The position numbers and the translations under genes were made by a program. A stretch of DNA of 64,000 bases from Nereocystis luetkeana (lineage: Eukaryota > Sar > Phaeophyceae > Laminariales > Laminariaceae), in contig JARUPZ010000003.1 in the NCBI GenBank assembly GCA_031213475.1, positions 11,971,580 to 12,035,579 of the forward strand, read 5' to 3'. This document shows positions 4,701 to 48,860 of this stretch, in pieces; the first letter of the stretch is position 1; the number at the start of each line of letters is the position of its first letter. The notes below the pieces were generated by a model. It ran no database searches and was not told the origin of the DNA. It worked only from the letters and a program-made list of their open reading frames with translations.

Positions 4701-7700
4701 TTGGCCCTGGGCTGAGTCTATGTTGAGATCGAGCGTCGATCGTCGCACGAGCTGGTTTCTATCAGCATGTTGAATTTGCAAGCAGAAGAACAAATTGCGC
4801 CGCCTGCAGCCGTTTGGGGAAGAAAAAACAATACATTTGTATTTTTTTCCCACAGCGGCGGACGAGGAATTTTTCGGCTGTTCTTTGAAAGCGATGTTTG
4901 AAAAAAAACTTTTGGACTTCGCGTTTCCATTGGCATAGGTCTAACACCAGCGGGTACTTTATCAATAACAGGGAGGAGAGAAAATAAGAAGGAAGACAGG
5001 GTAGCCCGAAAAAAAACCCTGGCTAACACTCCCTCCCCCCTGGCGGGCCGAAAAAATAACTCGACTTTTTTTTTTCTGAAAGGACTTTATTAGCTGACAC
5101 GCGTTGACAAGCTTTCAACGTCACCTTCCCTAATTACACTTAAAGTAAGCTCTTGTGCTTCGTATAGTACAGCTACGTAGCGCGACGTGCTTGTTTTCAA
5201 TCGATTTCACGGCGACTGTCATGACAGAGATTCGCCCAATGTACACCATGTGCAGCCTGCGTGGCCTGCCGTTTGTGTTGTTCACATTAAACCGTCTTTC
5301 TACCCGTCGGCATCCAGCACACTCAGTGTCCATGCCGATTCTCCAACCCTGTTAACAGAGAGATACCTGGTACATGTTAGTTATGTGCCTGTACAAGACT
5401 ACGACACAGCATGTTCGACGCAGAGATACTACTAGTAATACTGCGCTACCCCGTACATTGTTACGTGCGCAGAGGAGTCATTGCAATGCCATGTCTCTAG
5501 AATTTAAGCTTTGGCGCAGACACGGGTTGTGCTGGATGGATGTCGACCGGTTTAAAAAACGGTCTATGTGAAGAACAAACAGCACAGGTGTCATCGTACT
5601 GGATACGGCAGGCACACATACGCATTCCATGAATAACTTGTGTGGAGAGGGAAAAAAAGCAGAAGGAACAAAGAAAATCAAATCGAATCGAAAAAAAAAC
5701 AAGAAAAGGGTCGTGCCTGCGCGAAGGAGATGTGGCAGACATTTTTTTTTTTTTTTTTCGCTCATCCCATTCATTATCTTCGCCCATCTTTTTCTCTCTC
5801 TCCTTCCAACTCGTAACTCAGATCCGGGGTCACATAGCAGGCTGTTCTCCCCCCTTCCCGCCACGGTACGTGCCTTCATTTTTATCGCGAGAAGATTCCA
5901 GCCTTTTCTTTCCTCGTCGACTCGCATCGAATTGTGCCTACCCACGCTGCAAGGCGCTCTCAACAATTGAATCCTTTTTTATTTTTATTTTTGCAAATAA
6001 AGTCGAATGTCCGACCCACCTGGGGCCCGAACCCAGGACTCAAACACAAGTAGAATTCGAGGTTAACCACGTGAACCACCGGGGCGATATATCACAAATA
6101 AAAGAAACAAGTCATACCACAACGTGTAAAAAACCGTGTGAGTTCTTGCGTCATGTATATATATATTTTTTTCTTTATTATTATTTTTTTTCTCTTTCGT
6201 CTTGTCGTCTTTGTTTTTGTTTTCTCTTTGATTGTTTCCTTGCGTTTCTCTATTTCATAGAATGTGTATGTCGTGCCTGGCGTACCCCTTTAGAACCGCA
6301 GTCCCGTTCTGGGGACAAACCAGTCAAACTTCGAGTAGTTTGTCCCCAAAACGGGACTGCGGTTCTAAAGGGGTTAATATTAATAGTGTGATGACATGGC
6401 ATTGCATTGCCCACTGCTGTGCTTACTGCATGCCTGGTACGTGGCAACGTAGTATCTCTGTGGCGTAGCTTTGTGACCACAGAACTTGTATCTCTTTCAT
6501 GTTCTAGGATTGAAGAATCGGCACGGACACTGGTTGTGTTGGATGTCGACGGGTAGAAAGAACGGTTTAATGTGAAGAACACACACAGACACACATGTGT
6601 CAGTATGTGATTTCAGCCAGCGCCGACGGGAATCATTTCGTACGCAAGGCAGAAGGTTGTGGTCTTTGCAAGCTAGAAATGCATGTGGAGCTGGAGCATA
6701 TACTCGCAGGAACATCTGCTGCCAATTTTGTTAGAATCAGACAAGATAGAGAGTCGCCGAACTTCGTGCACTTCTTCCATGAAGAACGCCAGTCAATGCA
6801 AGTCGATGCCTATGTGGAAGTTGTCTCGTTGCTGTTAAGTGTGTCCTAGCCTTGACCCGGAAGAGCTCACCTGAACAGAATTTCGAACCCAATACTATGA
6901 TAGCCGACACCAGAACGCGGAAAAGTACACCTCCTTGCTCTACGTCAACAATGTACTTCCTCGATTGTTCTCGTAGAGAATCGGCGATGCAGAAACACCC
7001 AACCACTCGTTACTCGTTAAACACGGCAGAATAGTCTGGATCTTACTGCTGTGGGTATCAACGTTGAATTGAGTATGTACCCGAGATTGACTATTCCTCC
7101 GACCACTTCCTCTTTGCCACGTCGAAGCTGATAGTCATGCGAAGCCGTCCCCAAAGTTTGTTCCACATCGGCAAATCCACGATCTTCACAATCCTGGCCC
7201 TTGTGGCAGTGGCTATTCAGCCAAGCCTGCGTACTGAAAGGGGCCGCTGTACCTGCTGCTTCACCCTCCGCAGAGCTCAAGGCCCGTGGTGTGTGCGTGT
7301 TGGCTTGTGCACCGCGGCGTGTTCGTCGGCAGGGGTGTAGGGGAGAGTCCCGCCGCGTTTTTTCGGTTTCAAACCGGTCATTCCTCATTCCTTATTTCGC
7401 CCGCGAAAGCATCTGGTTTGTTTATCTATAAATTAGTCCAAGAATATGTATGTAGGATTTGGTAGGGATTTCTTGGGCAGGGGATGGTTGCCTGGTACCC
7501 CCCCTAGTAAAAAAACCAAGTATGAAAAATGAAGTGTTGGTCTTTTTTTTTTTTTTTTTTTTTTTTATCCTCCGACGGATTGGTAAAAATAAAGCTTAAG
7601 CTCACCACACTTCCACGTTCGTGTCGTGTGTCAATTTAGCCCAGTTGGGCACGTTGACCCGACCTGACCCCCGAGAGGAGCAGGTGCGGTGGAGATAGCC

Positions 7701-10700: not shown

Positions 10701-13700
10701 CAATGACTCGCAGCAGGACTTGGTGGTGAGCCGTCCGAAGCTTGGCAAAGTGTTCCGCTCTGAGGGTCCACGTCACACACCCGTACAGCAGGGTCTCAAT
10801 CACCTCGGCCTTCAGCATTCGGACTTTAAGGCTAAGGGGGGCGGTCGTCCTATCCTACAACTCCGGGCCGAACCGTTTGAGGCATGCTCGCATGAGGCGG
10901 ATCCGTCGGTCGATTTCGAGCGAGAGCGCAGCGTTTTCGTGGATAACGCCGCCTAGGTATAATAACTGGGTCGTCTGCTTATACCTTTGACCTGCCGCTT
11001 CGATGACGAGCGGTGGTGCGAGGGTTGTCCGGTCTGGTGTTTGTAGGACCATTGTCTCAGTCTTCTTTTCCGACACCGTGAGGCCTGCTGCTTCGAAGAT
11101 AGTCACGATGACTGTCATCATTTTTGCGAGCCCTTCAGCCGACTTCGAGACAATTCCTGCATCATCGGCGTACAACATGCCCCATACAGACCTTCGCACG
11201 CACGCCAACGGCTCCTCCTTCCCTGTTCGAACTACTCCAGCTTCACAGAGTTGGACCAAATCCCTTACAATGGCTTCGTCTTGGCTGAAGCGTACTAGTA
11301 CGACGTGTAACGCAGCAGCGAAGAACACGTTGAACAGTAACGGTGATAGTACACAGCCTTGCCGCAGCCCCTGCGTGACATCAAACCATTCCGAGAGCTC
11401 GCCGTCATCCGTACGCACGCGAGCCCGCATGCCATCGTGGAAATTACGGATAATTCTCAGCATCTTGGTTGGTACGCCAAAGCGTGTGAGTACCTTCCAT
11501 AACAGCTCTCGGTCGACAGAGTCGTACGCTTTCTGCAGATCGATGAATCACACGTATAAGGGGATTTTCCTCTATCGTCTGAGCTCTTGCAGCCGGCGCA
11601 CGACGAACAACATATTAATCGTTGATCGTGCGGGGCGGAAGCCGCACTGTTCCTCGGGGTATAGTTCCTCGGTCTCGCAGTAGTTGCTGAGGCCCAAATG
11701 CCCGTCGCCCCGGTGGTTCAAGTGGTTAACCTCGAATTCTACTTGTTTGAGTCCTGGGTTCGAGCCCCAGGTGGGTCGGACTTTGACTTTATTTGAAAAA
11801 ATAAAAAAGGATTCAATTGTTGAGAGCGCCTTGCAGCGTGGGTAGGCACAATTCGATGCGAGTCGACGAGGGAAGAAAAGGCTGAAATCTTCTCGCGATA
11901 AAAATGAAGGCTCGTACCGTAGCGGGAAGGGGGGAAGAGCCTGCTATGTGACCCCGGATCTGAGTTACGAGTTGGAAGGAGAGAGAGAAGATGGGCGAAG
12001 ATAATGAATGGGATGAGAAAAAAAAAAAAAAAAAAAGGATGGCAAGAGGGTGCCTGGTGGTGAAAAAAAACGTGCACATCTCGAATATTCATTCACAACT
12101 ACTGCTGGATGTCGACGGGTAGAAAGAACGGTATGTGTGTGTTCTTCACATAACACCTTTAGAACCGCAGTCCCGTTTTGTGGACAAACTACTTGAAATT
12201 TGAGTGGTTTGTCCCCAAAGCGAGACTGCGGTTCTAAAAGGGTTAAACCGTTCTTTCTACCCGTCGACATCCAGCGCAACCAGTGTCCGTGCCGATTCTT
12301 CAATCCTAGAAGAGACTCGTACAAGTTCTGTGGTCACGAAGCTACGCCACAGAGATACTACGTTGCCACGTATGCAGTAAGCACTGCAGTGGGCAATGCA
12401 ATGCCATGTCATCATACTAGATACGACAGGCACGACATACGCAATCTATGAAATAGTGAAACAAAAAGAAACAATCGAAGAGAAAACAAAAACAAAGTAG
12501 ACAAATCGAAAGAGAACAAGAAGAAAAATGAAAGCAAAAACTATTAATGGGAGAAACAATCTGTCGTGCCCCCCCCCCCCGCAGGCGAGGTGGCCAACAC
12601 TTGAAAAAGAACGGGCTGGCAAAAAGAAAAACTAACAAAAACACCACTGCTTGTAAAAAGAGTCAAGACACAGAACCAAGGAAAAAAAATGAAATAAATA
12701 ACAGAGGGAAAATAACAAAATAACAAAGGGAAATAACAGGCAGACCAAAGCCCAAAGCACCCTCCAGGTGGCGGCAGCAGTTTGTGGTACTATTAATAGT
12801 AGTATAGCCAGGTTCCCCCTGCTAATCCGCCTGGTACCTTGTTACCCAGACTGCCGTTTCCGCCCTGCGTTCGTCAACTATGCCCAGCCCCTTGGCGTCA
12901 GACAATACGAAACGAGCAGAGCGGGTTTGTCATCCAACCACGCCACACGGCTCCTTCAGTACGGCTTATCAATCAGAAAAGGAAGAGAGAAATAAATAAA
13001 ATGAAATCACGGAGAGTCAGCGCAAGAAAGAAAAAAACAAAACAAAAAGAGAAGACAAGGGAAGACCACGTTCGAACCAGCTGCACCAGTTGGTGGCACT
13101 AGTAGTATGGTCAAATTCTACCTCCTAGTCGGCCTGGTGCCTTGCTACCCTGTCTGCCATCTCCTTCCTACTTTCGTCTACCGCAGTTTCCCTTCTACCC
13201 CTCCTGTTCCCCCCCCTCTCTGCATTCCCTTGGTCGGGCTTTCTGCCACTTCTCCTGTTGCCCCCTCTACCCCCATTTCCTTGGGCACCATCCACGGCGG
13301 ATGCGCGGCGCTGCCTACTCATCTCAGCCTCAGCCTCGTGCCACCTCACCATGAACCGTTCGGCTACTTCAAGGATCCCCCGGTACCACTTCCCCGCCTT
13401 TTTGGCTGCAGTGAACCACAACGCGGTCTCAACTCCAAACACCAAGAGGGCAACTTCCGTTGACCCTTCGGTGGCTCGGGACTTCCGAAAGTCTTCGACT
13501 ATGCATCTATGCCAAGTCTTACACTGTCCGCCTGGTCTCGGGTTCTCCCCACCAGCTATCGTCCCGAACATTACCCGACTGGGTAATCGCTCCTTGCTTT
13601 ACCGTGCCACGCCCCCCGCAAAGAAGAGCCGCCGTTTACGAATGGTCGTTTCGATGCACTCGCAACGTGTCATCTTGAGGGCCTTCGCGTACGAGAGGGT

Positions 13701-16700
13701 GGCATGGTCAGTACGAAGTCGGCGCTGGAAGCCAATGACTCGCAGCAGGACTTGGTGAGCCGTTCGAAGCTTGGCAAAGTGTTCCGCTCTGAGGGTCCAC
13801 GTCACACACCCGTACAGCAGGGTCTCAATCACCTCGGCTTTCAGCATTCGGACTTTAAGGCTAAGGGGGGCGGTCGTCCTATCATACAACTCCGGGCCGA
13901 ACCGTTTGAGGCATGCTCGTATGAGGCGGATCCGTCGGTCGATTTCGAGCGAGAGGGCAGCGTTTTCGTGGATAACGCCGCCTAGGTATACTAACTGGGT
14001 CGTCTGCTTATACCTTTGGCCTGCCGCTTCGATGACGAGCGGTGGTGCGAGGGTTGTCTGATCTGGTGTTTGTAGGACCATTGTCTCTGTCTTCTTTTCC
14101 GACACCGTGAGGCCTGCTGCTTCGAAGACAGTCACGATGACTGTCATCATTTTTGCGAGCCCTTCAGCCGACTTCGAGACAATTCCTGCATCATCGGCGT
14201 ACAACATGCCCCATACAGACCTTCGCACGCACGCCAATCAATGGCTCCTGCTTCCCTGTGTGAAGAACACACACACACACTGCTGTCAGGACCAATATTA
14301 GCCTTGCACGTATTAAATACCTGGTACGTGCAGTTTCTCCACTGGTGGCTAAAGTATCTGTGGTACTACTGTACCTGGTACAATGGATGAATTTTCGAGA
14401 ATTCATCCAACTCTGCAGCCGGCTTCCTGTTAATAGGTGCCGTGGTTCGCGTGTCTACTAAGATTAATTTCGTGGGTTCGAGCCTCACCGAGTGCACACT
14501 CGTAACATATGTACGTAGGGGACGTTTTCTTGCTCAAAAATTGATGCAGAAAGCGCGACAGCGTGAGTTTTTGATAAGAATATAATATTAATATTAAGTA
14601 GCAACATTCGATGGAAATCGACGAGCATTGGGTGGGAGTGGGAATGCTGAACCCTATGCGTGATAAAGCTTAAGGCACGTACTTTTTTTTTTTTTTTTTT
14701 TTCCATCCCATTCATTATCTTCGCACATCTTCTTCTCTCTCTCCTTCCAACTCGTAACTCAGATCCGGGGTCACATAGCAGGCTCTTCTCCCCCCTTCCC
14801 GCTACGGTACGTGCCTTCATTTTTATCGCGAGAAGATTTTAGCCTTTTCTTCCCTCGTCGACTCGCATCGAATTGTGCCTACGTACTGGGGGGAAGGGAC
14901 GACACCTATGACCACGGCTGTCCAGAAGATCGCTGAGGGTAAAAGCCTCCTATGGAAGGTAAAAGTGATGATGAAACAAAAATATGAACGAAGAATAGGA
15001 AATAAAGACCACATCTACTTTTGTGTTGTAATTTGTAATTTGCATTCCTAATTCCTACGTACAAGGTATATTTATATATATATATATATTTTTTTTTTGC
15101 TCATCCCATTTATTTTCTTCGCATCTTCTTCTCTCTCTCCTTCCAACTCGTCACTCAGATCCAGGGTCACATAGCAGGCTCTTCTCCCCCCTTCCCGCCA
15201 CGGTACGTGCCCTCGTTTTTATCGCGAGAATCTTTCAGCCTTTTCTTCCCTCGTCGACTCGCATCGAATGGTGCCTACCCACGCTGCAAGGCGCTCTCAA
15301 CAATTCAATCCTTTTTTATTTTTATTTTTGCAAATAAAGTCAAATGTCCGACCCACCTGGGGCTCGAACCCAGGACTCAAACACAAGTAGAATTCGAGGT
15401 TAAGCACTTGAACCACCGGGGCGACCGTATATATATTATACCTGGTGGTTTATACTTTGTACTTTGTGGTGTTTCATCCCAATTATTGTGTTCGCCCCTG
15501 TTGTCGTTCTTGAGTCGTCACTATTACGGGGGGCCATAGTTAACAGGACCAAATTTTGTCAGTAAAAATGGTTAAACATACTGGTTTTTATGTATACCAT
15601 AGGTCCTGTTAACTATGGTCCCCCGTAATAGTAACTGAGATCCGGGGTCAGACAGCAGTAGGCAACGTGTCGTATGTTGCGTACGTTCTTCACATTAAAC
15701 CGTTCTTTCTACCCGTCGACATCCAGCATCCAGCACAACCAGTGTCCGTGCCGATTCTTCAGAGAGGTATGTTCAAGTTATGTGGTCACCAAATTACGCC
15801 ACAGAGATACGAACACGTTCTTACGAATGCAGTAGGCACAGTAGCAGTAGACAATGCAATGCCATGTCATCCTACAGCAGTGGTACTGGATATAGCCACG
15901 GCATACACATTCTATGAAAAGAGAAAACGAAAGAAAACATGAAAAAACAAGAACAAAAGGAGACAAATCGAAAGAAAAAAATAAACGAAATAGAAGGGGA
16001 AACTGTCGTGCACCTCCCGCAGGGGATGTGGCAAGGCACTTGGAAATAACGAGCTAAAGAAGACCACTACTTGTAAGACCTATGCCAACGGGAACGCCAA
16101 ATATTAAGAAAAACTTTAAATTTCAAAGATCCCCTCCAGAATGTTTTAGAGCACGCTTCCTATGGGCACGTTTAGAAAAACGAAAAGTTCCTAACTTTTG
16201 GAAAAACCCCACAAACTCAGGCCGATCTTTGGTTCGAAGCGGCGACATTCTGAGTCCTTGACATACATCGATCGACAAAACCAACGACTGCGTCATGATT
16301 CTGCGCGGAGTGCGCTCGTTAGGGGCTCCGACCCACCCTAGGGTCACCGTCTTTACACCATGGCCGGTGTCATGTGGCGGGAGCAAACCAAGCGTATGAT
16401 AAAAAACAATTGGCCGCTGGTGTGCACAAAACAGACGACAAAACTTCTGCATCCGTCTCGAATGGCGAAAAATAGACTTTTTTTCAGGTTTGGGAGGATG
16501 CCGTAGGACGCCGCCGGCAAGCTCTCGCCCCCTAGACCATGGATCCACCTGATATCTTCGAGGCCGTCATCTAGAGTCGTTGGCCTCGCCGGACACCGAG
16601 CGGGTTGGCCCTGGGCTGAGTCTATGTTGAGATCGAGCGTCGATCGTCGCACGAGCTGGTTTCTATCAGCGTGTTGGCAATTTGCAAGCAGAACATACCA

Positions 16701-19700
16701 AATTGCGCCGCCTGCAGCCGTTGGGGGGAAAAAAAAAGAAAAAACCAAACATTTGTATTTTTTTCCCCACAGCGGCGGTACGAGGAATTTTTCGGTTGTT
16801 CTTTGAAAGCAATGTGTTGGAGAAAAAAAAATTGGACTCCGCGTTTCCGTTGGCATAGGTCTAAACAGAGTAAGACGAAGAACCAAGGGAAAAAATATTA
16901 ATAGTATTAAATAGGCTCTTGTCTCTTCTCTCCTACGGTACGCGCGTTCCCTTCATTTTTATATTTACATCGCGAGAAGCTTTCAGCACTGCTGTCTTCC
17001 CTCGTCGACTCTCGTCGAGTTGTGCCCTCGAGTATCACTCTTGTGTTAATAGGCGCTCTCGACAGCAATTGGTGTCATTCCAGAATAAAAAGTTCCGTAC
17101 GGAGTCTCGAACCCCCGACATCAACCTTTAGAGTATTTATGTATTATTAGCACTCTTCACGGTTTACTGCTATAGACCATCGGGCCGATACGTACTTGGT
17201 GTCTTGTGCTGTACTGGTATTACTCTCTACAGAGAGCCCAAGATACCCAGCAGTATCCCATTTGTTAGCTAATCAAGTGCGAAATCCAAAAATTCGTACA
17301 AACGAGTAAGTACGACTTTTGAGCCATTTATAGGTACACTTAGTATTGCACTCGGGAAAAGGGTGTCTGGCCCTCCCTCTCATTGCGGCCAGCCCCCGAT
17401 CGTACTTATTATTGTTGGCTTAAAGGTTCCAGGAAGAGAAGTGGCGAAAATTGGGTATACCCGATGACTTTGTGGCCAAAATCGGGTACATTTCTTTTTC
17501 AGTGACCGCGAAGGCCCCAGAACGCCATCTCATTGGTCAACGCCGGCCACCACCCGATGCTGGCCACTTTTGCGCCGGGTATACCCGATTTTGGCGACCA
17601 AACACCCAAGAAGTACCTTATTATTGTACCCACCTACCCGAAAATGGCCAGACTATTCGACCACAACGACCAACCACCACCTTGGGACTCATGCCTCTCG
17701 TCCCGACGAAGGCGGGCAAGAACCATCTGCGTATGCCCATGACTAGGTTAGTTCTATTAATAGACTCGTTCATTCGCTTTCTCTCTGCTGTAGTACCGAA
17801 CCAACCGCACACAAACCACCGCTCTCCCTCCCTCTCGTCTCCTATCCCAGACCAAAGTTAGCACAGCCCTCTCTCTCCCCTTCTCTCGAACCAAAAGCAA
17901 CCTAAGCACAGCAGCATTATTAATAGTGGTGACGGGTCATGAGCAACGCCACCAACCTCGTGACAAATAAGGTGCTATCCAGACACAAAGAGTGGGCAGC
18001 ATAATCTCTTCTTACTTCTGGTCACCCGCTGGAATTCTTGCGTACAACAGGGTGTGTCCCACGCTATTTTCAGTACTAAAAATTTGAATTTTCTGATTTT
18101 CGTCCAGCCCTTCAGCCTGAAATTATCAGCAGTCAAGTTCGTACGGGTAATTGTAGTCGCGTTGTAGTCATGACGCATATTTTTGGCACGCACGCGCCGG
18201 GTTTTGTTCGGTGCTTTGGGCAGCATACGTATCCGGAATAAAAGCATCCGTATACGAGTAAATTGCGCTGCGTGTCGTCAACTATTGATACCTGGTAGTT
18301 AATAGTTGACGATACCCAGCATTAGTTCGTCCGTCATCGCCCAACTTTTCAGTACCTGTTGCCTTGCGGGACATATTTTTCGTATTGTTTCCCGAGGCGT
18401 CATCATCTCATGAGGACCGTATCGTGTCGCCACGATAATTGGCTCCATCATTTACGATACGAACAAGACACATTTTTACTAGTAAAATAGTACGAGTAGA
18501 CGAATGCTTTTATTCCGGATACGTATGCTGCCCAAAGCACCGAACAAAACCCGGCGCGTGCGTGCCAAACTATGCGTGATGACGACAACGCGACAACAAT
18601 TACCCGTACGAATTTGGCTGCTGAGAATTTCAGGCTGGAGGGCTGGACGAAAATCAGAAAGTTGCATTGTTAGTACTGAAAATAGCATGGGGCACACGCT
18701 GTTGTACACAAGAATTCCAGCGTGTGACCAGAAGTAAGAAGAGATGATGCTGCCCACTCTTAGTGTCTGGATATCACCTAATTTGCCACGAGGTTGGTAG
18801 CGTTGCTCATGATCCGTCACGAATATTAATAATGCTGCTGTGCTTAGGTTGCTTTTGGTTTGGGAGAAGGGGAGAGAGAGGGCTGTGCTAACTTTGGTCT
18901 GGGATAGGAGAGGAGAGGGAGGGAGAGTGGTTTGTGTGTGGTTGGTTCGGCACTAGAGCAGAGAGAAAGCGAATGAATGAGTCTAGAATTAATCTTATCA
19001 TGGACATCACGCAGATGGTTCTGGCTCTTCTTCGTCGGAACGAGAGGCATGAGCCCCAAGGTGGTGGTTGGTTGTTGTGGTCGAACGGTCTGGCCATTTT
19101 CGGGTAGGTAGGTACATTAATCGGGTACCTCTTGAGGGGATTTAGCCAAAATCGGGTATACCCAGCGCAAAAGTGGCGAGCATCGGGTGGTGGCCGGCGT
19201 TGACCTATGAGATGACGTCCTGGGGCCTTCGCGGTCACTGAAATAGACAGGTACCCGATTTTGGCCACAAAGTCATCGGGTATACCCGATTTTGGCCACT
19301 TGTCTTCCTGGGAGATGTCTCTGTCTACTCACTACTCAACTGTCAGATTGGGTTTCACGTATTTTTGGCTTCAATTGTACCTATAAATGGATTATACGGC
19401 GTACAGAACTCAATTAAAAACTTTTCTGGCAAAACTGTAATACGCCGTCCACGCGGGACCGTTGGAAGCAGGTGGACCGAGTTGTCAACCAAAAACGAAG
19501 TCATTGTGCGAAATCACGTTTTGTGGGGGAATGTGGATCGTAATCATATTTCACTATTACATACTGGTACCTGGTACCTGATATTTACAGCAACGATGTC
19601 TAGGGACAACATTTTCACCCCTCGACAGACAGCAACTTCGCCTCGACATGCCTTGACTGACACCAAGCTGCTTTGTTTAGTATAGTAGTATGAAATACTC

Positions 19701-22700
19701 GGCCCCACACCCGTGACAGCGCACGTTTTGCTTTGCTTGACATGTCTCCTGACATCTTTGATTCACATAGTACGGCACACTCCGTAATACGTACCAGGTA
19801 ATAACGTAATAGCCCAGTAGAAAGCTTGGTTGTTGGCTGGGAGAAGGTTGCATACTTGGCAGGAAAGAGCAAATATGTTGGGAGACATATCATGCCAGTC
19901 AAAATGTGCGCTGTAAGGGTGTATGGCCGAGTGTTCCAGACTAAAACCTACCTGGTAGTAGCTTGGTGCGAGTCAAGGCATGTCAAGGCAAAGTTGCTGT
20001 CTATCAAGGGGCGAAAGTGCTGTCCCCTGACATCTTTGGGGAAGAACCCCTTTTTGTAGGTCTAATACAGCTTGACCCTTTTAGGACCGCAGTTCCGTTT
20101 TGGGGACGAACTACTTGGAACTACTTGTAGTGTGGTTTGTCTCCCAAACGGGACTGGAGTACTGTAAGGGTTAAAGGCCATAAATAGGTGTAGCCCATAG
20201 CCCAAGTTGAATATTATAGCCACAGGGGGTTATTAATACTTGTACCTGGAACCGTTCAGCCAACGTTAGGTACTATCGGGCGCTAGCCAATCAGAGAGAG
20301 GCCACGAAGCCTTTCCCTTCGTGCAATATTTAGTGTATCTAGAAACGGCTCAACACGCGTACGGAGGTATACTTACTTCGGCTTACGTACGTATATTGTG
20401 ATATTTCGAAATTCGAATTGGTATCGTAGGAGTACTCGTGGTGTTTTTTCATACGTACCTGGTATCTGATACAGTCCATTTTTTATTTGCAACTGATTAT
20501 TAATAGTCGAAGAGTGAACCACCAAGTATTCGTTTTCGATGACAAATTCAAAACACCAAATTCAACCAAGGAAAGTCTTCTTGGACGTGTTCGCCGAGAC
20601 ATGGTGACACCCTTGAATACCTTGATGCGTATTGAATCTTTGCGGAGGTTTTGTGTTTGGCGCCTCAAGCCGACCCTCCGACCCGAACCCTAAGCCGAAC
20701 CCTATGCCAGTGGCCAGTGCTCGGTTGCTGTGCGCGGAAAGACTCTATGAATAGGCCTCGGGATGCTGCGACTAGGAAATACCAGTGATGGCAGCTACGG
20801 GAGTACACCTAACTTCCCGTAATTAGATTGAGCCGTCCGTTTTTTTTTTTTCACCTTGGTAATAGTTGAGCCCGATCCACCCCCCCCCCCCCCCCCCTGT
20901 TTTCTATAGTCGAAGCCCCCGCACACAGCGTGCAACACACAGCAACTGCACACAACCACAACACACGGCACACAGCACAGCGGGAGACGTCATGTACAGA
21001 ACATCTATCCACAATGTGTGCACGGCTGTCTCAGTTCCTTTTATGTTTTTTTGCTGTAAAAAAGCTTGTTAAAGGCTTGAAACAGCGCCTTCCGTACATG
21101 CTGTGGAAATCCGGGGATGATTCATTTTTGTCCCCGGTTTTATACCGTGATTGCCGTCCGTATTTTTTTTAATTGCTGATTTGCCGTAATTACGCGTCCG
21201 TAATTGTTTCAATCTCCCGTAGTTGCCATCACTGGGAAATACTATAGGGTGTTTGAGCGGCATATAATACACCTCAACCAATCAGCGTGCCTACATATCT
21301 ACCTTAGGAAGATTCTTACTATAAACCCTTGACTCCTGCCTGTGGTTGCCTCAATTGTTGTTTCGCATTTTGGAGTTGTCCATCTCGACGTGGCATGTTC
21401 CACGTAACCGAATCGAGCCACGCAAATTTGTGAGGTGTCTTCAGAAGCGAGAAGCCGCCATTGCGATAGCTACATAGGACCACCGGACACCGGACAGTTT
21501 CCATTTCCCAGACAACTCCATTGAGTGGACGGTCTCTGAATTCAACTGTGTCAGGGGCGATTTCGATAAATAGACAGCCGCCGCCGCCGAAAGAAATTGT
21601 CAGAACAATTTCAATTTATAGACAGCCTCCCAAATCTGTTCTCGAAATGGCCGCTCATGACACCCGCATTTTTGGGGACATACAGTCAGCAGTATAGAGT
21701 TTTACATGCGCCTGAAATTCGTATGATATACTCGTACTATTAATACTGTATATGTATAGTTATGTTCTACACACAAAAAAGTGGAACGTTCTTTTACTCG
21801 TTGAGCTTACCGGTATGTAGGGTGGAGGCAGGCAGTAGGCAGCATGCCTTTGAGGCACGCAGCAGGCGTTTCAGGCACTTGTATATATATAGATGAGCGT
21901 CCGCAGTTTTTTTTCCCTTGGATAGGCACGATATAAATCACAAATGCCTGAAAGAAAAAACGTGCCTATCAATTTGTCATATACCGAGCATGCCTTAACC
22001 CCTTTAGAACCGCAGTCCCGTTTTGGGGACAAACTACTGGAAATAAGACTGGTTTGCCCCCAAAACGGGGCTTCGGTTTTAAAAGGGTTAAACATTTTGC
22101 CGTGGACATGTTTGAAACCTGTTGAGTCCCCCAACGTACACCCTGTACTAATTTTAAGTAACTTTGCTCCAATGGGTAAATGCCTATCTTGTAGGTACTG
22201 TGGTTGTATCTGATTTTGGGAGTTCCGGCGTAGCGGCGTTATTGAAAAGTGCCTGCAAGGCCTCTTACGCGTGCCTGTCCGTGCTCTAAGAAAGATAGGC
22301 AAGACAAGCACGAAATCCGTGGTCAAGGCACGCCTCTTCCACAAAATGTTCAGCCATTATTTCAGGCAGGTCTTAAAGGTGGGGGCCGAAGATGAGTAGA
22401 CCCTACTCTGTATCCTATATATACCCCCTTTTCCCCTGAGTTTAGGAGTTTCCGTCTAACGGCGTTATTTTCATGTGCCTGCAAGGTCTCTTCGAATTCC
22501 GTTCGTCTCCTGCCGCAAGATACGTATTCAAGAAAAGGATGTTCAGACACGGTCTTTCAGAAAAGATGGTTGAAGCATGATTTCAAGCGCGCGGTGGTAC
22601 TGGACCACACTCTGGACAATGGGCAATGACCCCTGTAATAGCGAAATATAATATGGTGCAATGGACGGGTCTACCGCCGTCGGCAAAGGTTATCGATTGG

Positions 22701-25700
22701 CACGTTTCTCCATCTATTGTCGTCGGCAACGCTTGTCAACAGGTTATATACGTCCGCAACATTTTATTCAGGCAGGAGCGTGCTGCAGTACCTCGGTTGA
22801 AAGCTATTGCCACCGACAATGGCTATCGCTATTAATAGATCGATTGCAGTTGCAGTCGACAATGGCTATCGATAGACACATTTCGTTACCTATTGTGACC
22901 GGCAATGGCTATAGATTGATGCACTTCCTAATCTATTGTGATCGGCAATGGCTATCGATAGAGACAGTTTATAATCACGTGTGGTCGGCAATTGCTATAG
23001 ATGGACACCGCTTACAATCTTGTGGTGGGCAATGGCTATCGATAGACACCATCACCCACCTATTCCACACCTGCAATGTACTCTGATTAATAAAGCAATA
23101 CCTGGTATATTATATCGTGACGCAGCCCTGTATGTGTAGGTGATACAGTAGACCATTGCCGCTACACAATGGCCCCGAAGACGTGCTTTTCAACGGTCAT
23201 TGTCGACCACAATGGACCGGCCGCGCTGTGTATCGATAGACATTGTCGGCAACAATCGGTTTCGATAGTTCGGGCGATGGCCCGTTTAGCATCATGGGAC
23301 AGATGACGTATGAAGTGCTTATACTCTGGACAATAGAAAACAAAAACCTGGTAAACACTGCCGCTACAGTAGTAGCCCCGAAAAAGCGCGTATCAACGGA
23401 CATCGCTGACCACCATAGACTGGCAACGGTTTGTATGGATATACTTTGTTTACCACAATAAACTGGCAACGCTACGCTATCTACGATAAGCATTGAACAC
23501 AGTAGACTGACCACGCAGTCTATCGATAGATATTTTCAGGGAACAATATATTTTCGCCAATTGACACAACATGCCAACGCTGGAGTGACAACATTGTCCA
23601 TAGATGGCCGTTGTCCCGAACTATAGATGTTGGGGAAGCAACCGCGATAGGCATCGTAGACTTTGTTTTAAAGAACCAAAAACAGCCTTTCTACGAGTCT
23701 CGATAGCTATTGCCGCCAACATAGGCACGCAATTACGTCCATCAATAACCATCGTCACTCACAATAGACTAGTGGACGTGTTTCCGCGATAGGCTATTGT
23801 CCAAGCTTCTTGTATACCGCGGAATGGAGTAAATAATGTCGATGACCATGGTTGACGACCGCCGACGATTCTATTGCCGCCAACAATAGATACGCGATGG
23901 TGTCCAACGATAGCCATCGCCACCCACATTGGCGTTTTTCCACAGTGTACTACGTGATTGCCTAGTGTATATCGTGGAATGAGTGCGAGCTATCCTCGAG
24001 ATGGCTGTCGATCTATCGACGGATAGCTTGCACAAACTGTGGTAGCGGGCAATGAGCATCGATACATGACTTGCACAATTTATGGTGGCCAGCAATTGCT
24101 ATCGATAAACACATTGCACAGTAGTCTACTGCTGTGGCTGGCAATGGTCATCGATAGATACGGTTTACCATGTACTTTTTGCTCGACAATGTCGACCGAT
24201 CGACAGATCACCAGTCTAATGTCGACGACAATGTCTATCGATCGACAGTATTACCAGTCTATTGCCGACGACTATATGTATCGATAGGTTTCCCCCCCTC
24301 GTCTCGTTCATTGTCAAAGGAATAGACAATTCAATAGACGATAATGTGTCTATTGTCCAGGGGGTGTAAACTGGACACTGGACGGTATTGCTCCCAAAGC
24401 GTCGAAAATACCTACCTGGTGCCGTGTCGTATACCAGGTATATGCCTACTATAATAATGAGGGACCCATGGTTCTCTCTTGCTTTTTTTTGTTTTTGTTT
24501 TTTTTGCTCATCCCATTATTATCTTCGCCCATTTTCTTCTCTCTCTCCTTCCAACTCGTCACTCAGATCCGGGGTCACATAGCAGGCTCTTCTCCCCCCT
24601 TCCCCCTTCCCGCTACGGTACGTGCCTTCATTTTTATCGCGAGAAGATTTCAGCCTTTTCTTCCCTCGTCGACTCGCACCGAATTGTGCCTACCCACGCT
24701 GCAAGGCGCTATCAACAATTGAATCCTTTTTATTTTTATTTTTGCAAATAAAGTCAAAAGTCCGACCCGCCTGGGGTTCGAACCCTGGACTCAAACACAA
24801 GCAGGATTCGAGGTTAACCACTTCAACCACCGGGGCGACCGGCCTTTGACGGCAGTAGACACCGCAATAGGCAATTACTTTTACATCAGTAGAATCAATG
24901 AGTTGTCTATTGTTATAGTTGGAAATTGTCTGCACAGCAGTAGAGGTTTCGGGGACTGCCTCTTAATATCCAATGATACGATGTGCGGGCAATAGAATAG
25001 AGCGACTGCTGTCTTTTCATTGGATTTATCCGGACAACGTGGTCCGGAAACTGTCTCATGAATTGGAAGTGTCACGACAATGGATTCGGCCAATACCACA
25101 TTAATATGAATAGTACTCTGCAACATATTTTATTTCCCATACGCAGGATAGGGAAATTGACTGCATTACACTATTGGTTCTACAGTCTAGATAGGTGGGC
25201 GTCTACTAAATGGAAATTATCGAGCAATTGATTTTGCAGACTGTCTGTGACGTGAGAATTGTGCGGAAAACTGATTTCGGACTCTTGCGAATTAGTTATA
25301 AATTGGAAATGTCCGGAAAACTGGTGTTGGATACTGCGTATTAATTGGAACCGTCTAGACTACGTAGAGATTGCGGAGGCTGCCAAGTAATTGGAATTAT
25401 CCGGACACGAAGGTTTACCGGGTTTTGCTATTATTCATTTAAACTGTGCGAAAGGAAAGCAGGGCTGCTGCTGTGCGGTCGATTCCAGCGAGCTTTACAG
25501 CAGTGCAAGTCTAAGCGTAGGCCTTGTCTTGAGCAAATGCGGCACACCCCAGCTTGTCAACTTTGAGGCCAGGGCGCTGAGCCCACTATTTTTTACGTCA
25601 AGAGATGTTTTTCATGTTTCGGAAGTTCACCCGATTTTACGTTGACCATCGAGTCACGGGTTTTCAATGGACGAGGCCTTTATTCAAAGTCTCTACGATA

Positions 25701-34700: not shown

Positions 34701-37700
34701 CATTAGCATCGACATGGACATGATACTCGTACCTACCGGTGGTATTTTTTTATATACAGTAGTTTGTATGACTGTAATAACTGGCTATTAATAGTAGCAG
34801 GGTTCGCGATGACGGCCGGCGCAACCTGGACTTGGCCCTCGCTGTGTGTAGTACCTGGTGCCTGGAAGCAGTGCTCGGCGTACTTTGAATACTGTACCTA
34901 GATGGTACTGTTAGTAGTATTTGAGTACGATATTTTGAAGGAAAATGGTGCCTTGAGAAACGGATTACCAACGCAAGAGAGACTCCAGCGACTGCACGAT
35001 CGTCGATGGCGGGTTCTGGCGTATACCTCGTGATCCTTTGCGGCCGAGCTCCCCAACTGATCGTCATGGGTGCATGCTGAGGGTGCATGCTGTGGTTGCC
35101 GATGCCGTTCCTCCCTTCCTCCCTTCCTCCCTTCCTCCCTTCCTCCCTGTGCTTGCGGCGGTACCTATTCTTGACCGGGGGGGGGGGGCACGTTTTTGCT
35201 GTTTTTCATGATGCAGGGTGCGGCTTGCATGAACAACACGTTTTGTCTGGGGGTGTTCATGTTCCTGATCTACTTCCGTAGCCTAGCATGGGAGTTCAGC
35301 GCGGAAACAGTTACCATCTTGGCTGTGCAGGTGTGTCGGTACTCAATACGGTGGGTGTTTTTACGTTTTAGATTGCTTCCGATGTGGGGGGATACATTAA
35401 TATATTATACTATATACCAGGTACCTGATATTTATGACCAGGCCATCTCTTAGAGGAGGCTATCAAAACCCGAATCATCGGCGGCCCGAATGTTTGCATT
35501 TTTACGACGTACGCGTCTCTGATTTTAGAACGACCAAATCAGCGTTGCTCTTCTGAGAATACCGTAGGCCTTACAGTGACCAGTCAGAAGCACCTCAACC
35601 TTTTCTTTCTTTTCTTCAGGGGCGTAGTCCCAAGTTTTGACACAGTGTTCGCAGTTTCGGATTCAAAAACCGAGAAATTGATTTTCAGTTTTCAGATTGT
35701 ATAGATAACCTGTCCGCCTGAAAAAAGTGGCTGTTCTGGTGAAACCGGCATTTTATCGCTGAAAATCTATTCCTGTTATTTTTTCCATCCGAAATTGACA
35801 ACACCGTCAAAAATTGCAACTAGTGTACCCGTGTACGCCTCTGGAGATAAGAAGAATGTATCTGGGTGCCTCTCACCGGTTGGCCTGAGGTATTTATGAG
35901 AAGAGCAAGCTTGGTTCGGTCGTTCTCCGAGTCGAAAACGCGTGTAAATGCAACATATTGCGCCCAATTGCCGGGTCTGAATAATCTAATCCCCTCCTAA
36001 GATACCAGGGCATGCCTATTTGTTGACTGTTATTCACTATCATTCGATATTGTTCACGCGCTGTCATCGCAATTCACACACAGCTGTAGACTTCGAGTGG
36101 TGCATCGTTCAATGGCCATATCAAAATTAAAAGATCGAAGTTCGCCGGATTACGCTTGGGGTCTATTTTATTAACCGCCTGGTATATTGGTATGGTTTTT
36201 CGCGGCCGGCAGCTCGCGTTTCTAGATGGTGCTGTTATTAATAGTGCTCACTAATGCCATGTGCTGATAGAAACGAAGCCACGTACAGCAGTAGTGGGTA
36301 GGGGGGAGTAGCGCCCGCTTTGTGACCCCGGATTTGAGTTACTACCGGGAGGGAGCTGGAGAGTATGTAGGGCGAGAATAATAAATGTGATGGAGAAGAA
36401 GGAAAAAAAGTGTTTTAACCACACAGTATGTAAGGCATGCTGGCTTAGCTGGCCGTAGAACCGCCCAATTTCAACCCATACACCACACATGATAAACCTT
36501 TAATGATGTCTTTCATTTAGAGCCAAGCCAAGCCGAAATTGATCCTGAAACGACGCTCCCTTTTTTTCCCCTAGTTTTGCGCAACGCCGAGAGCACCCAG
36601 ACTGGCTCTGAATGCCCTCTGAACCTGCTCATTGGGCGGAGTCGGCGCAGGCGATTCGATTTAGGAAGGCCGCCCATCTGGTGATCATGCACGACTCGAT
36701 TGGACTATGAAGCGTACGTGACAGCTATCGTAGCGAGGATCGCGCACGCTGCGCTCCACCCCCTGACGACCCTGATAGACTGAGAGATTGGTGTTTTCGT
36801 GCACTTGGCTTTTATAGGCCTCGCTGGTGCGAAAGGTATCCCAGGTATATACCGGCATTTGCCTTTTTTTCATTTTGATGATTCGAGAAATATGTTGCCC
36901 TCGGAGAGCCGGCCGACCTTTGGGTAAAGCAGAAGTCATGTCATGTTGGCGTGGGAGTTTAATTATATCCATACATGAGTTGTTGGTGCAGCGTACGCCC
37001 CCTCAGTATGTCGCCCGAGCCGTCATTGACTACTTGGTCGGTCGATTGTTGCAGTACCGCTGTAGTCTAGTAGCAGCCTCGCCGGTTACGATATCGCCTG
37101 GTACAGACCAACACGTTCCGGCCTCTGGCGCCTACCGTATGCCTGTTAATACTGTATCAATAGCGAAACTCCATGCCGGCGTGAGGTGCCAACAGCTCCC
37201 ACGGCAGAGATTGTCAACGGAGATGGCCGCTAATCGAAGGGTTTCGTCCCTTTATTACCGGAGCAGCTAACAGTAACAGAGGTTTATTCGTTTCCCCGTG
37301 TATATTGTGTCAACCCTCTTGTTTCCCAACAGGTTGCTGTACACTCATTGTACCGGTATGTGCAACCATGACCTCCACCTCCACTGTTCACAGTGATAAC
37401 TGGTGTAGATACTGCTGTGCATGCCTTATCGCTAATACCTTTAATATTACGAGGTGCGATATACCTGGTAACCCGGGATGCGTGTCACGGCCACAATGAC
37501 AACCTGGTATCTCTTGCCGTCAATAACATGTTTCTCTACCAAGTATCAGGTATTGTACCATGTACACGGAATATAAAACAAATAGAACAACTCGAGGTAG
37601 TGTGAAATTAATGAATTTATACTAATAATTGAAGACGTTTCATTCATCATTGACTTCCATTCCCGAGGCAGAGGATATGGTCCGTATATGTATCAATAGC

Positions 37701-38539: not shown

Positions 38540-40255
38540 ACCTCCCGCGCGTCATCGGTTTTGGCGGGCGGCCTTGCCTTGCCTGGTACGATACTGGTAC
38601 ATGGGTATTATATTATGTATGATTGATTGGCACGGTGTTAAACCGTCCATCGTGTCGCATGTGGGTAGTGTGGAGTTGCTTCACCAATGCTTGCGCGGTC
38701 GTTCTCGCAGTTTGCTCAGCGCAGCTTTAGAACAAAAGCGGCGTAGGTGGGCCCAGAGCCTAGTAGGGTCCGCTCATCGTCTTTAGTAGCTAAGTAGCTT
38801 ACGGCGACCACACACATGGATGTGCTCCCTTTTTTTTTCTCGGGATTTCTCGCCCTCCTTCTGCCGTCAGAATTACCTCGCTCACGCTGTGTGGAAGCGC
38901 GAATGTTGGCGTGAACGTCGTGACAGGACAGAGCGTTTGGTTCTTGAAAGTTTCGTGTTTTGGTGATGCCGATAGGTAGACTAGACGTTTTACGCGCGCA
39001 AAATACCAGTGGTTTGTTTTTCCGGGCCGCACCAAGGTGGACTTATCACAATTTTTTCATTGGTACTGATTGTACTGTGTTAGTACGCCGTACAGTCCCG
39101 GCGACAATGCCGCGCATTTTTATTCAGGAAATATCTTTGTTGCCAGCGGAGTTCGTTCAATATTCGACCGTGTTGGGTGGTGAGGGTGCTCGTGTATACT
39201 ACAGTAGTGTATGTGCTCGCAGTTAGACTCCATCTTGGCTGTTCGGCAGTTTGAAAGGGGGGGCTGGTGGTGGACTTGTCTGAGCTGGGTGTGGTATTGG
39301 TGACGGCAGAGTTGCGGCGGAGGGTTGAAACGGTCGGCCCGTCTTAAAGGGAAAACCTCGTCGAAGGGGAGGAAACCACAGCAGCGGCAGAGCTGCGTTG
39401 TTTGTTGTTTTGTGTTCGGAATTTCATTTATTGGCACGTCGATGGCGTCGGAGTTGCAAGTGTGCAGTATGTGGCGGAGATTTTCCGTCCCTTCTTTGTT
39501 CGGAGAGTGAATCTGGATGAGCCTTTTGGGGTATGATACGGTTGGCGGCATGGTGTCATCGTCGGCCGGAAGGCAGGCAACAAACCAAAGACGTCACGGT
39601 TTCGAGTACACTAGCCGCTGCGCGATGCCTTCATCTTCCCCTCCATGTTCACTGCATACGTGGATGGACGTATTGATTTTCTACCGGAATCGCCAGGGTG
39701 CCACGACCAGGCTTTGCGGCAGTTATGTCATAGGAGTCATGAACGCAGAGAGACCAGTTAAATTACGACGTGGATCGGCGTGGGGGATGGCAGGGGGCAG
39801 GAGGACGCCGTACGCGGCAGGGGCCCAATGTGGACATTTTTGTTGTGCCTGGCTCCGTCACGTCTGTGAGGATCAATACTTTTTTGTTCTGGTGGCTTTT
39901 TTAGCTGCACAACGAGTATAATATGGATGGATTGCAAGCTACCAGGTACCAGGTATTATTAATAGTTTTCGCCTTGGCTTTTATTTCACCCCCTCCGCTC
40001 CGGAGAAGACGGGCGAGACACACTAGTCGAGGTTACTCCAAGAAAGAACGCAAACAAGGACGCCACGTAGTATGATGTTAACCATAAGTTGTGTGAACTG
40101 TTGAAGCCGCTTCCGGAGTGAGACAGAGACGTCGTTTCATCCAGAAATACTGGGGGATTTTTCTATTCGTTTTTGGCGGTTTCAATTCGCTTTCGTTTCG
40201 TTTCCCTTGAGACACATGCATCCACATATACCATGTATGACATTATACCATGTAT

Positions 40256-40686: not shown

Positions 40687-40935
40687 TTTTTTTTCTTCTG
40701 TTTCGTTTCTCTTCCCATCAATCATGTTCGCCCTCTTCTTTTCTCTCTCCCTCCTACTTTTAATAGTCGTAACTCGGATCCGGGGTCACAAAGTTCGGCC
40801 CTTTTCTTCTCCCCCTTCCCCACTACGGCTCGTTCGTGCCTTCAGTCTGCTCGCGAGAAGACTTAGGCCATTTCTTCCCTCTTTGCCTCGCGTCTTACTG
40901 CTACAACCCATTAGCCGGGAAGTCCGGCTACAGAG
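40687..40935 (-). mobile_element. SINE fragment (diverged)
   Basis: Poly-T, TCTCTCTCCCTCCTAC, then GGATCCGGGGTCACA and the GCGAGAAGACTTAGGCC body. It lacks the tRNA head. It has gained TTTTAATAG between ACT and CG relative to the standard SINE. Confidence 0.75.
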
Positions 40936-41301: not shown

Positions 41302-41398
41302 TTAACCCTTTTAGAACCGCAGTCCCGTTTTGGGGACAAAACACTCAAATTTCAAGTAGTTTGTCCCCAAAACGGGACTGCGGTTCCAAAGTGGTTAA
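41302..41398. mobile_element. MITE family A, copy 5
   Basis: TTAA-CCCTTTTAGAACCGCAG ... GTGG-TTAA, with TTAA on both sides. Confidence 0.88.
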
Positions 41399-42532: not shown

Positions 42533-42642
42533 CTATAACGGGGGACCATATTAAATAGGACCTACGGTACACACATAAAACTATATATTTCGCTATTTTT
42601 ATCAACAATATTTGGTCTTATTTATTATGGCCCCCCGTAATA
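42533..42642. mobile_element. MITE family B, copy 2
   Basis: C-TA-TAACGGGGGACCATATT on the left and GGCCCCCCGTAA-TA on the right. The interior resembles copy 4. Confidence 0.82.
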
Positions 42643-42945: not shown

Positions 42946-43554
42946 AAGATCCGAAAAACAAAAAAAACGAAAATTCGGCTGCCTCAAAATACACGAGACG
43001 GAAAAAGCGCACACAAGATAAAACCAATGTGCAAAACTGAACTAACATGGCCGCGGGTATATCCTCTCAACTATAACATAACAGAGTACCCCCGTTCCCA
43101 CCACTAACCAACTCGTGGCTGCTGACTACAGCGGATGCTGTCTGAAGTGCTGCCTGCACCGTACGAAACGCACGGTAGTCGTGAAAACGAAAGAGGAACA
43201 CACCTGCCTGCTATCTGGAGTGCTGTCAGAGTGAAGACTCGCGGATATGCAGTGAAAAAAGGAGCAATCGAACCTTACTACCACACGAATATCAACGATC
43301 GCCATCTCTTCCTGGACTGTCTGACACAAAAAGGTGCAGCACAGTTATGATACCACGTCCCTGATAATTGCGTAGGTTATTCCCCATGAAGGGTATATAC
43401 CCACTGGTAACTGGTAATGCAATGAGCGGGTCTGAGATGAGCGTCTCGGTATAGTTATAGATTTTCTCTTTTTTCGATTACCTGGTACCAGGTATCTCGT
43501 ACGCGCACCTGATATCATACGTAGATATCATGTACCAGGTACACGTATTATCCG

Positions 43555-43877
43555 GTCGCCCCGGTGGTTCAAGTGGTTAACCTCGAATTCTACTTGTTTG
43601 AGTCCTGGGTTCGAGCCCCAGGTGGGTCGGACTTCGACTTTATTTGCAAAAATAATAAAAAAAAGATTCAATTGTTGAGAGCGCCTTGCAGCGTGGGTAG
43701 GCACAATTCGATGCGAGTCGACGAGGGAAGAAAAGGCTGAAATCTTCTCGCGATAAAAATGAAGGCACGTACCGTAGCAGGAAGGGGGGAGAAGAGCTAT
43801 GTGACCCCGGATCTGAGTGACGAGTTGGAAGGAGAGAGAGAAGAAGATGGGCGAAGATATTAAATGGGATGAGCAAA
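43555..43877 (+). mobile_element. tRNA-derived SINE, copy 7
   Basis: Complete head and body; the A-tail is nearly lost (GATGAGCAAAG). Confidence 0.92.
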
Positions 43878-44471
43878 GATATTTATATACATATTAATAA
43901 TAGTCGTACGTAATCTACTCTTGACTGCTGCTGTATAATGTATCATACCAAAGTTGCTGTTTCATGCGATATGAAAATGCTGTGTTGCATTCGCTGAGTT
44001 TGATCTCGTCCACCGCCAAAATCGCGAGCGGCTTCATCGCTCGCGCCCGAGCCTTGCACGCCTACGATATATGGATATAGCCGCGATCTCACGAACATGG
44101 TACATAGAGTGGAGGTTCTTCTGCTTGACGTTATTCCCGAGTCTGGGTCAAGCAAGGTGTCAAGCAAGGTACGAGCACTATTGATGCTGTTAATGCTATC
44201 AATACTACTAATACTATAATAATCACGAAGTCAGACCCCTTAACGGCCCAATCACTCGAAGTCAATGCGCCAAAAAGTGGTGGGTACATCACATCGTAAT
44301 AAGTACTACCAGGTACTACTGGTATAGAGGAATACTAGACGTATAATAGGTTAGCATACCTGGTGCTCGTATTAATTTTTCATGCTGCCTGTAGTGCCAA
44401 GTGCCATATCCACTCCTATATCATACCATGGGTAGCATTTACATTGGGGGCGAACGTTTGGAAAAAAAGCC

Positions 44472-44570
44472 TTAACCCCTTTAGAACCGCAGTCCCGTTT
44501 TGGGGACAAACTACTTGAAATTTGAGTGGTTTGTCCCGAACTCGGGACTGCGGTTCTAAAAAAGGGTTAA
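44472..44570. mobile_element. MITE family A, copy 6
   Basis: TTAA-CCCCTTTAGAACCGCAG ... AAAGGG-TTAA, with TTAA on both sides. Confidence 0.88.
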
Positions 44571-44608
44571 GAGAAAGGTAACAAAAGCAACAAAAAAAGG
44601 TTAGCTTA

Positions 44609-46155: not shown

Positions 46156-46166
46156 TTAGCCAGAAG

Positions 46167-46495
46167 GTCGCCCCGGTGGTTCAAGTGGTTAACCTCGAAT
46201 TCTACTTGTTTGAGTCCTGGGTTCGAGCCCCAGGAGGGTCGGACTTTGACTTTAATTGCAAAAATAAAAAAAAAGGAATTCAATTGTTGAGAGCGCCTTG
46301 CAGCGTGGGTAGGCACAATTCGATGCGAGTCGACGAGGGAAGAAAATGTTGAAATCTTCTCGCGATAAAAAATGAAGGCACGTACCGTAGCGGGGAGGGG
46401 GGAGAAGAGCCTGCTATGTGACCCCGGATCTGAGTTACGAGTTGGAAGGAGAGAGAGAAGAAGATGTGCGAAGATAATAAATGGGATGAAAAAAA
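46167..46495 (+). mobile_element. tRNA-derived SINE, copy 8
   Basis: Complete: GTCGCCCCGGTGGTTCAAGT to a short poly-A. Confidence 0.92.
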
Positions 46496-48157: not shown

Positions 48158-48273
48158 TATTACGGGGGACCATAGTTAATAGGACCTATGGTATACATAA
48201 AAACCTATACCTGGTATATTTTACAATTTTTACTAACAATATTTGGTCCTATTAACTATGGTCCCCCCTTATA
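48158..48273. mobile_element. MITE family B, copy 3
   Basis: C-TA-TTACGGGGGACCATAGTT ... GGTCCCCCCTTA-TA-G. It contains a CCTGGTA gain relative to copies 2 and 4. Confidence 0.87.
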
Positions 48274-48751
48274 GTTGTTTTCATAGTCTATTATACTAAC
48301 CGATACGTCCCGCACTCGTGTGAATCCTTGTCTGTGCCTTGTTTCGGACACGCGCTTTCGGCAACAGCAGGTCAGGTGTGCTATCATAGCGTCACCCCGA
48401 CCCAGCTCACGCTTCCCCCGAACCCCCACCCTTGGCTCCCTCCCGCCTTCCGTCACCGTTACATAGCAACCCCCATGTCAACGCTCCCCTCCCCGCTGGT
48501 TCCCGCTATCTACGCGTGCCCGCTGAATGACCTACCACATCACCGCCTTGGCTCTCGTTGGGCCTGAAGGCAATAACTCCGACCAATTCCAAGCCTATTC
48601 ATTGCTTGCTGCTCGTGATTTAAGTTTAGTTCCACCATTTTCAATTTCTCCGTCACCGCCGCCTCTTTATGTGTCTACAGTAGTTTTACCGCGGAGCAAA
48701 AAGGCACTCCATCCCAAACTGTGCGGACCATTAAAGTGGTCATACGACATC

Positions 48752-48860
48752 ATTACGGGGGACCATATTAAATAGGACCTACGGTACACACAAAAAACCC
48801 ATATATTTCGGTATTTTTACCAACAATATTTGGCCCTGTTAACTATGGTACCCCGTAATA
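48752..48860. mobile_element. MITE family B, copy 4
   Basis: TTACGGGGGACCATATTAAA ... TACCCCGTAA-TA-G. The left TA has become CA. Confidence 0.85.

Follow-up and report, generated by a model that had tools for sequence, protein, structure and literature searches.

The palindromic word TATTAATA recurs in a stretch of Nereocystis luetkeana DNA (contig JARUPZ010000003.1, positions 11,971,580 to 12,035,579; 64,000 nucleotides, hereafter the window) that also holds copies of a short transposable element, MITE B. A preliminary description of this DNA proposed that the word is the footprint left when MITE B is excised. Is this the source of the word, or does it have another?

MITE B: copies, ends and target site

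The element at 15522-15630 was confirmed as a real MITE with inverted ends, which begin TTACGGGGGRCC, and TA on either side. It reads C-TA-TTACGGGGGGCCATAGTTAACAGGACC...GGTCCTGTTAACTATGGTCCCCCGTAA-TA-G and gives CTAG once closed up. By self-comparison we found four copies in the window, of about 105 bp, TA-flanked and with TTACGGGG inverted ends; a profile built from these four detected no fifth window copy above the inclusion threshold. The copies at 15522..15630 (both TA included) and 48158..48273 have the target C-TA-G (ACTAGT), so that the C-TA...TA-G context claimed for them earlier is borne out by their flanks. Terminal inverted repeats are present, with arms of 34 and 31 nt that are 94% complementary at 15522 and 48158, and the copy at 48158-48273 contains TACCTGGTA (48208-48216), absent from the other copies. 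In the remaining two the inverted repeat is about 27 bp, TTACGGGGGRCCATAGTTAAYAGGACC with a few differences, and neither has a full CTAG: the copy at 42534..42642 is flanked by AC-TA on the left and TA-CG on the right (C-TA...TA-C), and that at 48751..48860 by CA replacing TA on the left and TA-GT on the right (C-TA...TG-A on the minus strand). No transposase with TTACGGGG ends was detected in a scan of ten reading frames of the window, the sole Pfam match being a reverse transcriptase. At 61921-63497, a TA-flanked stretch is bordered by inverted ends that resemble TTACGGGGGCTC and are separated by 1.57 kb. It may be a defunct MITE B relative; it was rejected as autonomous parent, its sole listed frame of at least 110 aa (61953-62435, 160 aa) being without a Pfam match.

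Further copies came from a scan of GTDB with the MITE B end pattern, which returned 14 loci: four (L003, L004, L013 and L014) hold true copies, and the other ten were judged by reading to be chance matches. All four come from MAGs with the names g2_MAG or g3_MAG; two of these MAGs are Saprospiraceae, one is a Phycisphaera and one a Flavimaricola. Their contigs add 11 copies, two of them without the left end, for a total of 15 including the window; a 26-base match in G003:C278 that the profile did not take up was left out of this count. MITE B lies there in contig ends where the base composition departs from that of the host-like part. Stretches with window MITEs at such ends are L032 1-2000, L034 1-4000, L037 1-1250, L038 7400-7898 and L073 11500-12562, while L035 and L036 contain little beyond MITE B itself and G004:C61 also carries the window SINE and MITE A. 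We consider these stretches in bacterial MAGs to be probably contaminating kelp DNA. A kelp microbiome study describes bacteria of these groups together with kelp DNA in its assemblies (PMC9238374), and we infer that the four MAGs derive from that study.

The bacterial families to which G001, G002 and G004 belong were searched as well (398, 51 and 394 genomes, respectively, the sets of 398 and 394 being drawn from larger groups), and MITE B was found in no genome beyond the four MAGs. Matches to CTATTAATAGT and TATACCAGGTAY in the four MAGs lay mostly on contigs without window similarity; among the returned loci L044-L072 such similarity was confined to the known G004:C61, and CTATTAATAGT gave 5 matches in G001 and 18 in G003 vs. 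5 and 9 for the backward control. In the four MAGs the LINE-region query matched SINE and MITE A stretches and detected no LINE. When IMG/VR was scanned with patterns taken from MITE B, MITE A and the SINE, no match was obtained; the LINE reverse transcriptase gave four pattern matches, none of them a relative.

Considering all two-sided copies, 11 of the 13 have a clean duplicated TA target at each outer end, after by-eye shifting of the ends in three copies, a one-sided copy among them. The claim that MITE B targets CTAG was correct for part of the family: a full CTAG occurs in 4 of the 13 and not in the rest. The copies are described better by AC-TA or TA-GT flanking one or both sides, a rule followed by 12 of the 13 (flanks entered by hand, three ends shifted by eye beforehand) with L036 as the exception. 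A literature search judged by titles and the abstracts shown found no paper describing the family or its scars, and a full-text search for words including TATTAATA found nothing related by title.

Abundance of TATTAATA and its gain at TA

As counted over the window, TATTAATA occurs 44 times, compared with 0.89 expected from dinucleotide shuffles and 0.58 under a second-order model, the latter being the top ratio of all 256 palindromic 8-mers. The preliminary description called it the commonest word, which is accurate for over-representation among palindromic 8-mers and not for number; TTTTTTTT, CCCCCCCC, TATATATA, ATATATAT, ACCAGGTA and CTATTAAT are more numerous when both strands are counted. 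The 44 words amount to about 350 bases, about 0.5% of the window. The scars record numerous events and occupy a small share of the sequence, and to call them a major class of noncoding sequence was too strong. One-mismatch neighbours of the word are also in excess (79 vs. about 18, summed), so the scars have seemingly accumulated over time; 17 of the 79 are TAATAATA, perhaps a microsatellite. Between 45.8 and 63.7 kb the word is missing across 18 kb despite CTAG being there. A 41-bp tandem repeat of about five copies, with CTAG at its unit junctions, lies at 47069-47280.

To describe the change that produces the word, window repeats were self-aligned and copies with the word (once in decayed form) were compared with copies without it. 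At four comparable places the alignments present TATTAATA as a 6-bp gain at TA, from TA to TA-TTAA-TA, with one or more CTAG comparators at each. The word at 12791..12798, in a LINE copy, faces ACTAGTAG in the LINE-internal repeats at 10049 and 13080 and TACGAGTAG, which is not CTAG, in the other full LINE copy. The decayed scar TATTAATG at 12542..12549 in the LINE faces TCTACGAG (9.2 kb) and TCTAGGAG (47.5 kb). The earlier claim of a gain at CTAG in the LINE therefore stands in that both places have CTAG comparators, with the qualification that each also has another with CTAC or CGAG. The word at 17755..17762 corresponds to TTCTAGAC in an inverted duplicate near 18.98 kb, and that at 6378..6385 to TATCTAGTATG in copies near 9.4, 12.4 and 47.7 kb, a fourth copy (15.9 kb) being diverged there; the local change at 6378 is compound, because MITE A directly adjoins the word. 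For the remaining TATTAATA no unoccupied copy was found in the window at indels of 3-14 bases and flanks at least 75% alike, and both members of the pairs 8847/8885 and 17918/18824 carry the word. We conclude that TATTAATA is very likely a transposon excision scar.

Other TA-bounded words are also frequent. The leading ones are TCA, CAG, CCG and GAC with three inner bases; TTAA, then ATAG, ATAA and CGAG with four, of which ATAG and ATAA overlap TATTAATA or TA runs; CCWGG and TTWAA with five; and CAGCAG with six. The CCWGG, CTCG, CAGCAG, CAG and TCA words look like scars of other families, two classes having unoccupied copies: the CCTGG-class scar TGCCTGGTA at 6431..6439 has one near 12.4 kb (GCATACG), and a CTCG-class 4-bp gain before TA at 12316..12321, with the left TA missing, has two. 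A CCWGG gain is also seen within MITE B at 48208 and, by reading, in the MITE B inverted repeat of L034 (GGTCC-TACCTGGTA-TTAACTATGG). In the whole window (e.g., at 39940-39955, 43479-43494 and 63294-63309) TACCAGGTA/TACCTGGTA reaches 39 occurrences vs. 0.75 expected; it is also found in tandem (TACCAGGTACCAGGTA), as if a single TA had been struck repeatedly. Of 43 TA-flanked inverted pairs, none was recognisable as a parent element with CCAGG ends. The 9112 host-like MAG bases, with boundaries chosen by eye, show the excess again: they contain five TATTAATA where 0.2 would be expected, one of which overlaps a MITE B terminus, together with four CCWGG (0.08 expected) and one CTCG (0.23 expected). 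Taken as a 3′ overhang, the top TA-bounded word of inner length 3-6 self-pairs at 2/3, 4/4, 4/5 and 4/6 positions, respectively, and in the AT-, CG- and GC-bounded control sets no top word self-pairs at more than two. This comparison was made by eye on the top four words per list, with TA runs excluded and no statistical test, and self-pairing GATC and GGTACC do occur among the top four control words.

Flanks, a shared SINE position and rival sources

We compared the flanks of the word with those of MITE B. Across all 44 words, 29 of the 88 TATTAATA half-sites have GT facing outward, as do 14 of the 28 MITE B half-sites (15 copies), vs. 5.6% for any TA. With two duplicate copies dropped, 26 of 42 TATTAATA have at least one AC/GT side, compared with 415 of 3778 TA. 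Corresponding GT counts are 5/78 for CCWGG, 5/42 for CTCG, 12/54 for CAG and 1/50 for TCA half-sites, and CAGCAG has an AC/GT side in 5 of 10; the preference is thus not unique to TATTAATA, because CAGCAG and CAG lean to GT too. Under flank models, the eight MITE B half-sites of the window scored 11.3 with the TTAA scar (trained without the two duplicates and without half-sites beginning TTA, a neighbouring scar), 7.4 with CAGCAG, 3.4 with CAG and 1.6 with CTCG, and negative with CCWGG and TCA. None of 200000 random TA quadruples reached 11.3 under the TTAA-scar model. These scores support the view that the flank preference of TATTAATA fits MITE B better than do those of the five other scar-like words tested.

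Near relatives of the word behave differently. TATTATA (+5; 33 vs. 8.7) and TATTTAATA (+7; 7 vs. 0.41, two of the seven within MITE B) are enriched, with outward GT at 4 of 66 and 0 of 14 half-sites; as the GT flank is absent, they do not obviously come from TATTAATA-type sites. For the +4 form TATTTA the count is 4 of 94, a background level. Longer MITE B remnants (at least four bases of one end and at least two of the other) numbered zero in all combinations, few being expected.

A SINE-like family brings MITE B and a scar to one position. Its copies, of about 340 bp, contain a stretch that looks tRNA-like by eye, and ARAGORN detects no tRNA in them. They lie at about 450-797, 5742-6087, 11700-12036, 14683-14882, 15089-15427, 24483-24843, 43552-43877 and 46166-46495, and diverged copies at 36266-36409 and 40687-40894. 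In L034, MITE B (425-536) is inserted inside the SINE; closed with one TA, the SINE reads CTCTCTCCCTGC-TA-GTCGTAAC and has the length of eight window copies of type CTCTCTCCTTCCAACTCGTAAC. Nine window copies are without insertion there, the ninth (36.3 kb) being diverged, and a tenth (16.9 kb) stops short of the place. The SINE at 40.7 kb reads CTCTCTCCCTCC-TA-CTTTTAA-TA-GTCGTAAC and carries a TTTTAATA-type scar, TACTTTTAATA at 40755..40765, a 9-bp gain at CTAG at the L034 MITE B position. MITE B and a scar ending TTAATA-G hence occupy the identical CTAG of one SINE family. This scar has three extra bases relative to the exact word. Because the SINE copies are different loci, what the common position indicates is a common target rather than removal of the particular MITE B seen in L034. 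The check suggested earlier, i.e., to find empty CTAG, MITE B and scar at one site across orthologous loci, is nearly matched by this SINE; the scar is a 9-bp gain rather than the exact word, and the copies are paralogous.

In our view the probable origin of TATTAATA is the excision of MITE B, mobilised in trans by a transposase of the IS630/Tc1/mariner type. The excess of the word in the window and in the MAG stretches, the gain at TA, the flank fit, the self-pairing of the scar words and the SINE position argue for this proposal of the preliminary description. Against it stand the inexact SINE scar, the small share of full CTAG targets, the absence of longer remnants that could identify the source, the GT leaning of CAGCAG and CAG, the enriched near relatives that lack this flank, the self-pairing control words and the negative transposase scan of ten frames. 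An unlikely, though not negligible, source is another TA-inserting family with ends TTAA or TT and the same target preference, unrecognised in the window and possibly a sister or the autonomous parent of MITE B, whose footprints would lie at ACTAGT-like sites. No base in the scar singles out TTAC, TTAA self-pairs at 4/4 and the other scar words nearly so, and 44 words face four MITE B in the window, all of which suits such a family. Yet among the 43 TA-flanked inverted pairs surveyed (14-base arms with no more than 2 mismatches and a spacing of 40-1500 bases; 51 in the reversed-sequence control), those beginning with TT are scar pairs, MITE B itself, pairings of parts from different MITE B copies, or pairs in one large inverted duplication (17918/18831, 18065/18684). 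MITE B, in turn, accounts for TA, TT/AA and the target preference without extra assumption and shares the SINE position with a scar.

A second hairpin family, MITE A (about 97 bp), lies at 6284-6377, 12151-12246, 20071-20174, 21995-22091, 41302-41398 and 44471-44571, with relatives in L034 and L073. Ends resembling TTAACCCYTTTAGAACC and mostly TTAA borders mark it, by eye, as piggyBac-like; it is a family distinct from MITE B. That TATTAATA is the target or a leftover of this TTAA-bordered element is hardly conceivable and was rejected: its ends are TTAA and one of six copies abuts the word (at 6284, as if the TTAA of the scar had served as its target), but the other five lie outside it. Since piggyBac integrates at TTAA and its excision sites are repaired footprint-free (PMC7351741), MITE A would be unable to turn CTAG into CTATTAATAG. 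It is also very improbable that selection maintains the word as a regulatory or structural motif, or that AT-rich drift produced it as a side effect. The palindromic form and wide scatter of the word would suit such an origin, but it appears as a discrete insertion relative to paralogous copies, sits in the LINE and other repeats, and is accompanied by an excess of one-mismatch variants, as expected of a decaying neutral mark.

Proposed excision route and comparison with known systems

Tc1/mariner-type excision leaves 3′ overhangs of terminal bases. If TATTAATA is the MITE B footprint, MITE B would be a non-autonomous element on which an IS630/Tc1/mariner-type transposase acts in trans, inserting at TA with a preference for AC-TA or TA-GT (best ACTAGT) and duplicating the TA. 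Upon excision the first bases of the TTAC ends would stay as 3′ overhangs on both flanks, and host end joining would seal these as TA-TT-AA-TA, with a net gain of 6 bp. TTAA could arise from a 2-nt stagger with both overhangs retained, or from a 4-nt stagger (TTAC) in which the inner TA would pair and the unpaired 3′ C would be trimmed and replaced. We favour the 4-nt stagger, because the product looks uniform and TATTTA, the +4 form of typical Tc1 size, has background flanks only. Overhangs in this superfamily are usually 2 to 3 nt long, and 2 nt has been described for ISY100.

We tentatively suggest, with somewhat less than even confidence, that in this algal lineage several TA-inserting families (scars TTAA, CCWGG, CTCG, CAGCAG, CAG and TCA) have been excised so often, and resealed so uniformly via self-pairing overhangs of 3 to 6 nt, that the resulting scars rank with the most over-represented noncoding words and outnumber the surviving elements (44 words vs. 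4 copies). At 4 to 6 nt, such overhangs would exceed those usual in the superfamily. If the scar reading is right, a genome keeps a readable tally of transposon excisions. Each scar class could be assigned to a family through target preference and overhang, with repeats supplying the unoccupied state, and even where genetics is lacking the sequence itself would yield excision rates, the lengths of overhangs and the habits of end joining. It would also be a warning that an over-represented palindrome may be a scar and no motif.

Tc1 of Caenorhabditis elegans targets TA, and the present system resembles it in this target, in a small end-joining insertion and in one dominant product. It differs in the net gain, which here is +6 (TT plus AA) with the +4 form TATTTA at background, whereas a +4 scar is reported as the typical (78%) somatic footprint of Tc1 (PMC13148408). 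Like Stowaway MITEs and Osmar (plant Mariner), MITE B is short and TA-flanked. The Stowaway terminal consensus is CTCCCTC..., in contrast to the TTACGGGG ends of MITE B, which place it outside that group. Stowaway/Osmar footprints are described as 1-4 bp of terminal sequence inside two TA (PMC1925063), the sites that the Stowaway-like 14T32 vacates in yeast as repaired mainly by NHEJ (PMC4561436), and, among 94 putative excisions of all superfamilies in rice, only 8 as leaving the two target copies and nothing else (PMC4423477). Footprints of Stowaway/Osmar varied, while here one word is far ahead. From piggyBac-like TTAA elements MITE B is set apart by its flanks, which are TA and not TTAA. 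It shares the TA duplication with IS630 and ISY100, and IS630 reportedly prefers TA within CTAG; those are bacterial insertion sequences with a transposase gene, and MITE B is a hairpin of about 105 bp in a eukaryote.
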